Shown in pieces: positions 17,089 through 30,816 of a stretch of 64,000 nt of DNA; within the stretch, counting starts at the first letter, position 1; every line of letters begins with the position of its first letter. A program made the position numbers and the translations under genes. Source of the DNA: Hydrogenophaga sp. BPS33 (lineage in GTDB: Bacteria > Pseudomonadota > Gammaproteobacteria > Burkholderiales > Burkholderiaceae_C); the NCBI RefSeq assembly GCF_009859475.1, contig NZ_CP044549.1, positions 5,146,001 through 5,210,000 of the forward strand, in the 5' to 3' direction. The notes under the pieces are model-generated. The model saw only the letters and a list, made by a program, of their open reading frames with translations. It was not told where the DNA came from and did no database searches.

Positions 17089-18081
17089 ATGCCCACCTTC
17101 ACACGCATCTCCTCGGCCTTGAGCCTGGCCGTGCTCGCCGCGGTCTTCTCCCCGCTGGCCTCATCGCAGGCGCTGCCGGCCGGCTGGCAGTCCGTCGCCG
17201 GTGCGCAGACCATCAAGGCGATCAAGGCCGCGCCGCGCCTGCCCGTCTCCGCCGCATCGGACGATGGCGCCACCGTGCGGGTGACCGACGCCGCGCGGGT
17301 CATCGCCGGGGGTGACGACGTGATCGACATCATGGAAACGCTGGGCCTGGGCGATCGCGTGTTTGCCGCGCCCGAGAGCGCGGTGACCGAAGCGGGGCGC
17401 AAGGCGCCACGCCACTTCCTCTTCAACCGCACCACCGGCGCCGAAGGCGTGCTCAGCCTGGACGGCACGCTGTTCCTGGGCAACAGCCTGCGCCGCCACG
17501 CCAAGCTGTCCGAGACCCTGCGCGCCACCGCGCTGCCCGCCGTCGTGGTCGACGACTTGCAGCCCGCGCCGCAGAAGATCCGCAAGGTGGCCGCCGTGTT
17601 CGGCCTGGCCACCGAAGGCGAGGCCCTGGCCAAGGCCGTGCAACAACAACTCGACGAGGCCGCCGCCATCGGCAAGCCTTTGACCAAGCGCGCGCGCGTC
17701 ATCCATGTCTCCGCCACCGGCGGCGGCGGCAAGCCCACCGTGGGCGGCAAGGACACGGCCGCGGCACAACTCATCCGCCTCGCGGGCGGCATCAACATCG
17801 GCGACGCCGCCAACACCGGCGACTACACCGCCTTGAGCAACGAAGGCGTGGTCGCGGCCATGCCCGAGGTGGTGCTGATCACCCGCAGCGACCTCGCCCT
17901 GATGGGCGGAGAAGCCGGCCTGTGGCGCAACTACCCCACGCTCAAGCAGACGCCAGCCGGCCAGGCCAACCGCGTGTGGGTCATGCCCGACGTGCAACTC
18001 AAGATCGTGGGCAGCCAATCGGGCGCGGGCGCCATCGCCCTGGCCCAGGCCTTCAAAGCCTTCGCCACCAAAACCCCGTGA
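17089..18081 (+). CDS. hmuT: HmuT-like heme/siderophore ABC substrate-binding protein
   Basis: 330 residues with a Sec signal peptide (ISSALSLAVLAAVFSPLASSQA). It has the class III periplasmic binding fold: RVIAGGDDVIDIMETLGLGDRV near the N-terminus, GVLSLDGTLFLG in the middle, then VGGKDTAAAQLIRLAGGINIG. The closest family I recognise is HmuT/ChuT/PhuT. The neighbours are siderophore genes instead of heme-uptake genes, so the real ligand may be a ferric catecholate or its iron-bearing breakdown product. Its stop overlaps the permease start (GTGA). Confidence 0.78.
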   Translation: MPTFTRISSALSLAVLAAVFSPLASSQALPAGWQSVAGAQTIKAIKAAPRLPVSAASDDGATVRVTDAARVIAGGDDVIDIMETLGLGDRVFAAPESAVTEAGRKAPRHFLFNRTTGAEGVLSLDGTLFLGNSLRRHAKLSETLRATALPAVVVDDLQPAPQKIRKVAAVFGLATEGEALAKAVQQQLDEAAAIGKPLTKRARVIHVSATGGGGKPTVGGKDTAAAQLIRLAGGINIGDAANTGDYTALSNEGVVAAMPEVVLITRSDLALMGGEAGLWRNYPTLKQTPAGQANRVWVMPDVQLKIVGSQSGAGAIALAQAFKAFATKTP

Positions 18082-19145
18082 GCACGGCCGCCGTTCAACC
18101 TGCCCTGCGCGCCGGGGTGCGTCGGCCCAGCGGCCCTTTGCTGCTGCTGGTGCTCACGGCCTGTCTGCTCATCGCCATCGTGCTGTCGTTCGGCATCGGG
18201 CCGCTCAAGGTGGCGCCAGGCGACGTGCTGCGCATCGTGTTCGCGCGCTTCGGCCTGGTCGATGCCGAGGGCCTGAACGCGCGCGACATGGCCGTGGTGT
18301 GGAACCTGCGCATTCCGCGCGCGCTCATGGGCGCGCTGGTGGGCGCAGCGCTGGCGCTGGCCGGCGCGGGCTTGCAAGGCTTGTTCGGCAACCCGCTCGC
18401 CGACCCGGGCGTGGTCGGCGTGAGCCAGGGCGCGGCCCTGGGCGCGGTGGCGGCCATCGTGCTCGGCGCAACCGCGCTTGGTGACTGGACCGTGCCGGTC
18501 GCGGCCTTCGTCGGCGGCATCGTCTCCACCACCTTGATCTATCTGCTGGCACGGCCCGGACACGGCAGCGGCACCGTCACGCTGCTGCTGGTGGGCATCG
18601 CGGTCGGCGCGGCCTGTTCTGCCGCGATCGGCTTCTTCACCTACCGCGCCAGCGCCACACAACTGCAGTCGCTGGTGTTCTGGCAGATGGGCTCGCTCGG
18701 CTCGGCGGACTGGTCCGACCTGGGCGCCGCGCTGCCGGTGTTCCTGATCGGCCTGGCCGGCATGCTGATGCTGGCCACCCCGCTGGACATGCTGGCACTC
18801 GGCGAACGCCAGGCACAACACATCGGCCTGGACGTGAAGCGCACACGCGCACTCCTGGTGATGTTCTCGGCGCTGCTGGTCGGCGCGGCCGTGGCCTTCG
18901 CCGGCACCATCGGCTTCGTTGGCCTGGTGGTTCCACACATCGTGCGCCTGCTCGCCGGCCCGCGCCACCGCTGGCTGCTGCCGCTGTCGGCGCTGGCGGG
19001 CGCCGCACTGATCGTGGTGGCCGACACCGCCGCGCGCACGCTCGATCCGCCGTCGGAAATTCCGCTGGGCCTGTTCTCGGCCGCCATCGGTGCGCCGTTC
19101 TTCCTGTGGCTCGTGTTGCGCCAGCGCGTAGGAGGCGCACGATGA
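18078..19145 (+). CDS. hmuU: HmuU/FecCD-type ABC permease
   Basis: 355 residues from a GTG start at 18078, giving a 4-nt overlap with hmuT. It is a FecCD/BtuC-type permease with about ten membrane segments. Characteristic stretches are RIPRALMGALVGAALALAGAG, NPLADPGVVGVSQGAALGA and GTIGFVGLVVPHIVR. It forms the inner-membrane channel for heme, siderophore or vitamin B12 import. Its stop overlaps the ATPase start (ATGA). Confidence 0.88.
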   Translation: MSTAAVQPALRAGVRRPSGPLLLLVLTACLLIAIVLSFGIGPLKVAPGDVLRIVFARFGLVDAEGLNARDMAVVWNLRIPRALMGALVGAALALAGAGLQGLFGNPLADPGVVGVSQGAALGAVAAIVLGATALGDWTVPVAAFVGGIVSTTLIYLLARPGHGSGTVTLLLVGIAVGAACSAAIGFFTYRASATQLQSLVFWQMGSLGSADWSDLGAALPVFLIGLAGMLMLATPLDMLALGERQAQHIGLDVKRTRALLVMFSALLVGAAVAFAGTIGFVGLVVPHIVRLLAGPRHRWLLPLSALAGAALIVVADTAARTLDPPSEIPLGLFSAAIGAPFFLWLVLRQRVGGAR

Positions 19146-29800: not shown

Positions 29801-30816
29801 AAGTGCTGGAGCTCGCACCCGACACGGTGCTCAGCGTCGACACCGACTTCTTCGCCATCGGCGGTGACTCGCTCTCGGCCGTGGAGCTGTTGCTGCAGAT
29901 CCAGAACCGCTGGCGGCGCGACCCTGGCCTGGGCGGGCTGTTCGCCACGCCCACACTGGGCGCGCTCGCGACCGCGATCGATTCGGAAGAAGTGCGCTTC
30001 GACAGCGGCCTGGCGCCCGTGCTGCAACTGGTGGCCGGAGAACCCCAGCGGCCCATGCTGTTCGTGGTGCACCCGGCCGGCGGCATCGCCTGGGGTTACC
30101 GCCACCTGGCGCGTGCCTTGGCCGACGCAGGCGACGGGCGCAAACGCAGTGTCTACGGCCTGCAGTCGCCCGCGCTCGACCCCGACGCGCCGCTGCCGCA
30201 CAGCATCGACGAACTCGCGCAGCAGTACGTGCAACGCATCCTGGACCTGCAGCCGCAGGGGCCGATCCATCTGCTCGGCTGGTCGGTCGGCGGCATCATC
30301 GCGCAGGCCATGGCGGTCGAGCTGCGCGCACGGCAACGCCCGGTGGGCCTGGTGGCGCTGCTCGACGCCTATCCGGCCGATGTGTGGCGCAGCGAGCCCG
30401 AGCCGACCCCGCTGCAAGCCCTGCGTGCGCTGCTCGCCATTGCCGGACACGACCCGCAAGGCCATCCCGAACTCACCACGCGCGAGGCGGTGATTCGCTT
30501 CCTGCACGAGGGGGACACCGCGCTCGGCCACCTGCCGGCGCGCGCGCTCGAAGGTGTGGTGCGCGTGGTTACCGACACCAACCGGCTGATCCGCCAGCAC
30601 CACCACCGCCGCTTCGACGGCGCGGTCACCCACGTGCGCGCGGCAAACGACCACGCGACCAAGCCTCAATTGCAAGCCGAACGCTGGGGCCCGTACGCCG
30701 CCGACGTCGACACGCTGGCCTTGCCGCTGCTGCACGCCGAGATGACCAGCGAGCACGCGACGCGCCGGATGGCGCCGCTGCTGCTGCAGCTCATGGCCAG
30801 CGCATCGGACCGCTGA
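26854..30816 (+). CDS. entF: EntF-like NRPS (C-A-T-TE), predicted serine-specific
   Basis: 1320 residues. The condensation domain comes first, with HHLTNDG (His156-157). The adenylation domain (~470-960) has TSGSTGEPKG near 618. Reading the ten specificity positions by eye gives D-V-W-H-F-S-L-V-D-K (Asp663 and Trp from FDVSVW, His from HFVPSML, Phe/Ser from FCSGEEL, Leu from NLYGPTEA, Val-Asp from AAVDV), the serine code of EntF. The T domain has Ser1006 in IGGDSLS. The thioesterase has Ser1144 in GWSVGG. The predicted activity is condensing DHB with Ser and cyclising (DHB-Ser)n. No MbtH-like gene is adjacent. Confidence 0.93.
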   Translation: MTVSVAAASAPVLPAPTTPPTATMPWPLTEGQEGLWYAQRMAPDNPSFNTGHVTWIVGPLDVAAFTTAAEQAAREAQSLSLVLRDGPQGPVQWLDAARSPRLEHIDLSHHADPRAQARALIERDMQAPIDPRQDPLARQCLYQLGPRHFAWHQRAHHLTNDGYGMALWSTRLGELYSTLVAAAPGHEALAPLQGVIEEDAGYRHSERRAKDAAYWRETFKEMPEVVGMASGRAVAAHTCHRLTTSIEPGLLQRLVACAQSLQLPWPDVLTALTALYVLRMSGTTHNVVGVPTMGRLGSASARATATVMNVLPLRVSAHDDMPLAEFVQGIARDQLRARRHGRYRSEQLRRDLGLLGGQRRLHGPLINVQPFYRALTLPGVQLDLEILSTGPIDDITIGYRGDGAQHLDLEIEANPDLYSRPNAQAHQERLLAFLRHALDAQNVGDIALASPAESQRYLFDVNATDHPVPDTTLSALIEARMAQTPEAIALEYEGETLSYGELDARTRSLASALQARGAWHHRLVAVALPRSLELLVGLVAVLRAGAAYLPLDLSHPPERLARILALAQPVCVLVRDEDAAALPADTARFDPRAWPTPSKDALLGIGLRPHDAAYVIYTSGSTGEPKGVVVEHRAIVNRLEWMRQHYGFDASDRILQKTPATFDVSVWEFFLPLITGCTLVIAPPEAHRDPVWLARLIRQRAVGTCHFVPSMLAAFLGASGARGLRMRRIFCSGEELSAPLRDQLHATLQSELHNLYGPTEAAVDVSYWPADAQDRSSPLPIGFPVWNTRLYVLDARMRTQPPGVSGDLYLGGVQLARGYLGRDDLTAERFLPDPHRPGERLYKTGDLARWREDGAVVYLGRSDHQIKLRGLRIELGDIEAAMASSSLVERAAVIVREDHPGDKRLVAYVQAGAPYSEKALRAHVAAQVPDYMVPAAFVALDDWPVTSNGKLDRGRLPAPQITAALGEAPQSPTEIALAQMFLQVLELAPDTVLSVDTDFFAIGGDSLSAVELLLQIQNRWRRDPGLGGLFATPTLGALATAIDSEEVRFDSGLAPVLQLVAGEPQRPMLFVVHPAGGIAWGYRHLARALADAGDGRKRSVYGLQSPALDPDAPLPHSIDELAQQYVQRILDLQPQGPIHLLGWSVGGIIAQAMAVELRARQRPVGLVALLDAYPADVWRSEPEPTPLQALRALLAIAGHDPQGHPELTTREAVIRFLHEGDTALGHLPARALEGVVRVVTDTNRLIRQHHHRRFDGAVTHVRAANDHATKPQLQAERWGPYAADVDTLALPLLHAEMTSEHATRRMAPLLLQLMASASDR

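Follow-up and report, generated by a model that had tools for sequence, protein, structure and literature searches.

Gene content and upstream region of the operon

The window, a 64-kb stretch of DNA (64,000 nt) from Hydrogenophaga sp. BPS33, carried eleven confirmed open reading frames (ORFs) on the + strand at 17089-30816. This locus is a genuine gene set for the synthesis, export and recovery of an enterobactin-like molecule that binds iron, very probably a siderophore of 2,3-dihydroxybenzoate (DHB) and serine, and judging from its sequence it is probably iron-controlled. The gene order was T-U-V-Est-MFS-C-B-A-E-ArCP-F (Est, esterase; MFS, major facilitator superfamily; ArCP, aryl carrier protein), with a YncE-like gene at the head. 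F is a nonribosomal peptide synthetase (NRPS) with condensation (C), adenylation (A), thiolation (T) and thioesterase (TE) domains. The features are listed in Table 1.

Table 1. Features of the window and the matches that support them
Feature	Position	Strand	Match
tRNA-Arg(CCT)	15176..15250	+	
Fur-box-like operator, a pair of overlapping 14/19 sites offset by 6 bp	15447..15471		
YncE-like beta-propeller lipoprotein	15569..17002	+	PDB 1l0q E 3e-13; YncE 3vgz E 4e-11; lipobox in sequence
T, periplasmic binding protein of heme-binding descent, Phe at Tyr ligand position	17089..18081	+	
U, FecCD-family permease	18078..19145	+	PF01032 6e-96
V, ABC (ATP-binding cassette) ATPase	19142..19915	+	NF010068 (heme ABC ATPase) 302 bits, cut-off 261
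PfeE/IroE-type esterase, lipoprotein-type signal	19912..20967	+	PDB 6gi0 PfeE E 4e-56; IroE 2gzr E 9e-42
MFS transporter, putative exporter	20964..22208	+	PF07690 7e-38
C, isochorismate synthase (EntC/DhbC)	22213..23451	+	TIGR00543 267 bits, cut-off 225
B, single-domain isochorismatase (EntB without ArCP), 214 aa	23481..24125	+	PF00857 only
A, 2,3-dihydro-2,3-DHB dehydrogenase (EntA/DhbA)	24122..24913	+	TIGR04316 340 bits, cut-off 300
E, 2,3-DHB-AMP ligase (EntE/DhbE)	24934..26598	+	1md9 E 3e-202; TIGR02275 714 bits, cut-off 723.6
Free-standing aryl carrier, 84 aa	26595..26849	+	PF00550
F, EntF-like C-A(Ser)-T-TE NRPS	26854..30816	+	Condensation/AMP-binding/PP-binding/Thioesterase
M20 peptidase/amidohydrolase	30829..32019	-	
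TonB receptor, PqqU-like	41286..43622	-	PqqU 650 of 1200 bits

The successive intergenic gaps were -4, -4, -4, -4, +4, +29, -4, +20, -4 and +4 nt, which bore out the claim, made from the sequence alone, of eleven genes in one direction with 4-nt overlaps or gaps of 4-29 nt. The functions that this sequence-only reading had named for the eleven genes agreed with the Pfam and NCBIfam matches, the Pfam order being Peripla_BP_2, FecCD, ABC_tran, Esterase, MFS_1, Chorismate_bind, Isochorismatase, adh_short, AMP-binding and PP-binding, followed by F. All eleven genes were also present in two other genomes (loci L013 and L025) and parts of the set in many more, which excludes a chance arrangement. 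To call the locus complete was too strong, since genes for a TonB receptor, an EntD-type transferase and MbtH were missing from the operon.

The operon most likely comprises twelve genes, with the YncE-like gene as its likely first member, and probably begins one gene and one promoter upstream of T. This extension is drawn from the Fur-like box ahead of the YncE-like gene, the 86 nt between the end of that gene and the start of T, and the homologues and boxes in other loci. When the window was scored against a 19-position sequence that we take to be the Fur-box consensus, the operator was the sole site with matches of at least 13/19, compared with 0.3 matches per window in 20 mononucleotide shuffles, which keep base composition only. 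Of the 44 fetched loci, 22 had a homologue of the YncE-like gene, at just 27-33% identity in 11 cases, and some of the homologues lay on the opposite strand or away from the operon; on a Roseomonas plasmid, a gene annotated as YncE family lay immediately upstream of the isochorismate synthase gene. Fur-like matches ahead of the YncE homologue reached 14-15/19 in L011, L012, L014 and L039 and 12-13/19 in L013, L016, L022 and L028, the L020 row being left out of this comparison.

Three points weigh against this reading of the operon head. In 10 of the 22 loci with a YncE homologue, no Fur-like site of at least 11/19 preceded that gene, the closest relative (L025) had an 11/19 site at most, its upstream stretch being short, and gene neighbourhood is the sole evidence for the role of the YncE-like gene. 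A literature search judged by titles and abstract openings found no YncE in siderophore operons. The YncE-like lipoprotein would be a probable uptake accessory, and this is the weakest part of the explanation. The YncE-like gene shares the window with the PqqU-like TonB receptor; in E. coli, yncE and pqqU adjoin each other.

DHB supply, the EntF lineage and MbtH

Over its whole length, the best PDB relative of F was E. coli EntF (E-value 5.5e-235; 38% identity). In the columns that we take to form the A-domain code, F read DVWHFSLVDK, identical to E. coli EntF in the aligned columns, and the serine pocket claimed from the sequence alone therefore stood. The TE domain of F had S-D-H at the columns of what we take to be EntF residues 1138/1165/1271. 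Against the E. coli EntF family NF007605, F scored 872 of 2400 bits, below the equivalog cut-off. Ligase E aligned with DhbE (1md9) across nearly its whole length and kept the signatures HNxPxSSPG and EGLVNYTR, residues that we take to mark a DHB rather than a salicylate pocket. The proposed DHB-type pocket thus held as far as the kept signatures and the closeness to DhbE go. E fell just below the NCBI equivalog cut-off, which weighs against this assignment. EntE matches reached at least 668 bits in all 27 lineage genomes scored and exceeded the cut-off in one, so the cut-off misses nearly the whole lineage.

The host genome held the full DHB gene set. Among lineage genomes, isochorismate synthase was over its cut-off in 21 of 28 and DhbA in 14 of 27 distinct genomes (29 rows, two of them duplicates, with up to 63 candidates scored for each genome; the host was scored separately and was over the cut-off). 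Seven genomes (G249, G145, G282, G105, G012, G014 and G016) had EntE and EntF of the lineage but neither of these two enzymes over its cut-off, and they may use outside 2,3-DHB or another route. In L011 and L012 the operon lacked C, B and A in the fetched stretch, and an isochorismate synthase over the cut-off was found on other contigs.

Of the 44 loci from the genome scan, 40 (L011-L050) hold the EntF lineage of F. An alignment of 44 members was made from the scan loci, five loci of a family-level search and the window, with duplicates and the partial L046 and L050 dropped. The serine code was identical in 44/44 members, which also shared HHxxxD in the C domain, GGxSL in the T domain and the full S-D-H triad of the TE domain. 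An aryl-carrier match was present in 37 of the 40 loci, in 34 of these no more than 200 nt from the best F segment; L033, L046 and L050 had no such match, and L046 was cut by a contig end. The lineage spans alpha-, beta- and gammaproteobacteria (Comamonadaceae, Rhodocyclaceae, Lysobacteraceae with Xanthomonas and Luteimonas, Acetobacteraceae, Roseomonadaceae, Paracoccaceae, Rhizobiaceae and others). Four plasmid genes with 43.5-46% identity likewise had a separate carrier adjoining. Three listed congeners of the host had no close member (two without a match at E-value 1e-100, one with a 35% match), which makes the presence patchy. Acquisition from Enterobacteriaceae was not favoured; E. coli EntF formed a long outside branch in a quick tree, its exact place being unsure. 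The closest relative of all eleven genes, L025 (72-92% identity by gene), is labelled Pantoea, a gammaproteobacterium; a wrong label or a transfer of the operon might account for this.

E. coli EntF works with the MbtH protein YbdZ (PMC7539972). MbtH (PF03621) was undetected in all 28 distinct lineage genomes. The host genome (150 of its 155 candidates scored) gave no match, nor did the 19 genomes reached via loci (150 of 155-191 candidates scored in four of them) or the 10 family members of the taxonomic sample (all candidates scored), two of which, likely duplicates with the same contig and coordinates and identical F, were dropped from the total. E. coli and B. subtilis, run alongside, both matched PF03621. 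Within the taxonomic family, the nearest cousins, L080 and L081 (43% and 39% identity in two comparisons), each shared a contig with an MbtH gene, 5.7 and 2.6 kb past the match. With at most 21 candidates scored per genome, 15 of the other 56 genomes of this family that bear an NRPS had MbtH, vs 0 of 11 lineage genomes, a difference that is not significant alone (p 0.059).

A docking motif for MbtH on A domains has been described (PMC7539972, PMC6668435). It has drifted in the lineage: T was kept in 43/44 members and A or P stood at the pocket in 39/44, the pocket Ala being mostly replaced by Pro and the proline of PxxTA being mostly Asp or Glu in the betaproteobacterial members. F of the window had DxxTA with Pro at the pocket. 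Strict PxxTA with A/P was rejected as a marker of MbtH use, as it was not diagnostic in control A domains: it was intact in 6/44 members, and among the controls in 3/10 A domains of MbtH-positive genomes (9 loci) but also in 1/10 of negative ones. The pocket position separated the groups better, with Ala in 10/10 MbtH-positive, 3/10 negative (both counted by eye) and 8/44 lineage domains (Fisher p 2e-6 for 10/10 vs 8/44, uncorrected for relatedness).

The MbtH independence of the whole lineage is a good hypothesis with about even odds, and F itself would likely be active without an MbtH-like protein. Among the papers that a literature search listed, none dealt with an MbtH-free EntF. It is rather unlikely that F requires an MbtH-like partner too diverged for detection. 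That would fit the partly kept motif of most members, the window with its DxxTA and pocket Pro included, and a pocket Pro has been called compatible with MbtH binding (PMC7539972, PMC6668435), which also counts against independence; it is opposed by the 0/28 result for a profile that recovered its controls. A coin-toss proposal is that of a widespread proteobacterial synthetase lineage without MbtH, combining an autonomous serine A domain, a drifted docking site and a free carrier, to which the branch of the window adds a heme-type importer without the heme-ligand Tyr. Such a lineage would be a natural comparison for the role of MbtH at A domains, EntF being its well-studied counterpart.

No phosphopantetheinyl transferase (PPTase) gene lay inside the operon, which counts against the explanation proposed below. 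Two were found elsewhere in the host genome, and carrier activation would fall to genes outside the operon; one is AcpS and the other adjoins a second large NRPS cluster. This second cluster (host C1, 2.99-3.03 Mb, L066-L068) had open frames of 6135 and 4801 aa, with the PPTase and a flippase-like gene nearby, in a genome without detected MbtH. As a siderophore cluster it was set aside, the parts read having no 13/19 Fur-like match.

Uptake genes and receptors

T was nearest to the heme-type binding protein 5gj3, presumably RhuT, and to HmuT. At the position where heme binders have a Tyr that we take to be the heme ligand, T and each of the five orthologues found have Phe, within the stretch HFLFNR, whereas the binding protein beside the heme-type receptor of the host genome reads VGYMR, with Tyr kept. 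The earlier term HmuTUV-type was right as to descent (T and V matches), though T does not have the ligand Tyr. Together with a separate heme system that has its own FecCD permease, the Phe for Tyr suggests that T-U-V probably serves the siderophore or a siderophore breakdown product.

That T-U-V is an ordinary heme importer merely preceding the siderophore genes is improbable. V exceeds the heme-ATPase cut-off and T is closest to heme-binding proteins, and the score of V as a heme ATPase weighs against a siderophore role. An ordinary heme importer is hard to square with Phe in T and five orthologues where the heme-type binding protein of the host keeps GYMR, with the further FecCD gene that lies next to a heme-type TonB receptor (6.28 Mb in the host genome), with the 4-nt overlap that joins the importer to the esterase gene, and with the linkage of T, U and V together to the NRPS in 5/40 family loci. 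The Tyr-to-Phe change suggests that the label "hemin ABC transporter" would mislead for such operon genes. In one of the five loci with close T, U and V (L030), they lay several kilobases from F, and a dozen other loci had a FecCD-type permease with 36-45% identity to U within the fetched stretch; from this scatter, the uptake module of the lineage seems exchangeable.

The esterase is homologous to PfeE/IroE and carries the GxSxG serine as GHSYGG. P. aeruginosa PfeE and IroE have the same esterase module, which here bears a lipoprotein-type signal and lies inside the biosynthetic operon. Such an esterase with such a signal suggests periplasmic hydrolysis.

Nine TonB receptors were found in the host genome, all outside the operon. 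Those of L061 and L062 are of catecholate type, which speaks for the proposed uptake. The L061 receptor was CirA/IreA-like, and the start of its reading frame carries a 13/19 Fur-like match. L062 held tandem receptors, one of them Fiu above the curated cut-off; no 13/19 Fur-like match was found around them, a further sign that the Fur-like box is not general. In L025 a TonB receptor lay 2.5 kb beyond F, and among the nine of the host it was nearest to that of L061 (32% identity). The TonB receptor of the window was not favoured as the cognate receptor, its best match being PqqU.

Proposed pathway, known systems and surroundings

The locus is best explained as a Fur-repressed twelve-gene operon that makes a stenobactin/enterobactin-type siderophore from 2,3-DHB and serine, an explanation to which we assign a probability of about 0.88. 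Transcribed as one unit, C, B and A would convert chorismate to 2,3-DHB, and E would adenylate DHB and load it onto the free-standing aryl carrier. F would couple DHB to L-serine, and its TE would oligomerise the units, releasing enterobactin and/or linear DHB-Ser oligomers, which the MFS protein would export. A TonB receptor whose gene lies outside the operon would admit the ferric siderophore to the periplasm. There its ester backbone would be cut by the PfeE-like lipoprotein esterase, and T-U-V, as a heme-type importer that has adapted to a different ligand, would move iron or the cleaved complex inward.

A similar operon is known from Stenotrophomonas maltophilia, where entSCEBB'FA is Fur-repressed, has EntB and ArCP split and is needed for siderophore activity (PMC12210187, PMC9241820). 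The operon of the window resembles this stenobactin operon in its single-domain EntB, separate ArCP, EntE, EntC, EntA, EntF and MFS gene EntS (PMC12210187, PMC9241820, PMC9769818), and the stenobactin-type split, with a single-domain isochorismatase and a separate ArCP next to EntF, was found here. It differs in gene order, in the YncE head and in having the importer and esterase within the operon; S. maltophilia EntF was compared by description only. Three Luteimonas loci of the lineage (L023, L042 and L047) had the S. maltophilia order MFS-C-E-B-ArCP-F-A.

The E. coli enterobactin system has the same chemistry genes and serine code. The E. coli K-12 region differs in holding YbdZ, EntD, EntH, FepA and the permeases FepD and FepG, with genes on both strands, and E. 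coli EntB bears a fused ArCP, unlike B of the window (PMC12210187). In Streptomyces varsoviensis, the ens cluster has a separate isochorismatase EnsB1 and carrier EnsB2, and enterobactin and linear forms were isolated (PMC10188961); it differs in being actinobacterial and in its methyltransferases, and a term search of the main text found no MbtH (PMC10188961). Paracoccus and Kushneria have also yielded enterobactin (PMC13251462). In the alphaproteobacterium Paracoccus denitrificans PD1222, compared by description only, entF lies far from the dhb genes (PMC13251462), while other Paracoccus species carry the EntF lineage of the window (L033, L050 and L101). The betaproteobacterium Alcaligenes faecalis reportedly has a ybdZ-ent-fes-fep set like that of E. 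coli (PMC7643998), and a free-standing DHB carrier is also used for obafluorin (PMC5490192, PMC6668435).

The description of the siderophore type as classically enterobacterial was not supported by this comparison: an E. coli-like gene set is reported for Alcaligenes faecalis and enterobactin for Paracoccus and Kushneria, and the split-ArCP operon is known in Stenotrophomonas. The operon type is already known, and the operon here is unusually self-contained. The result assigns a DHB-Ser siderophore operon to Comamonadaceae and ties many alpha-, beta- and gammaproteobacterial loci to the stenobactin layout.

A DHB-Ser product is very probable from the genes present, and the chances are fairly good that cyclic enterobactin is among the products. 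Of the earlier prediction of a DHB-Ser trilactone or related oligomer, the DHB-Ser locus with importer, esterase and exporter is well supported, while the trilactone itself lies beyond what sequence can tell. A mainly linear product, DHB-Ser monomer and oligomers as for stenobactin, with a TE that hydrolyses rather than cyclises, is a possible but less likely outcome. Reports on the S. maltophilia K279a siderophore describe DHB-serine with related molecules rather than enterobactin (PMC12210187, PMC6240677), so the cyclic trimer is not assured, and the three Luteimonas loci share the S. maltophilia gene order. Set against this, S. varsoviensis makes enterobactin with the same split layout (PMC10188961), P. 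denitrificans makes it too (PMC13251462), its EntF perhaps being of another lineage, and the full S-D-H triad was kept in 44/44 members.

The tRNA-Arg(CCT) gene lies about 200 bp before the Fur-like box. A genomic island at this tRNA was rejected for the window, though not for more distant ends: the 3' end of the tRNA did not recur in the window, even with 3 mismatches allowed, and no good long direct repeat was found between 14500 and 46000. The GC content was 68-73% in the operon vs 64-72% around it. On the other side, the M20 gene converges on the NRPS gene with a 12-nt gap. An antisense frame inside the M20 gene was matched in 6/44 loci, so the M20 gene may lie close to the NRPS there too.

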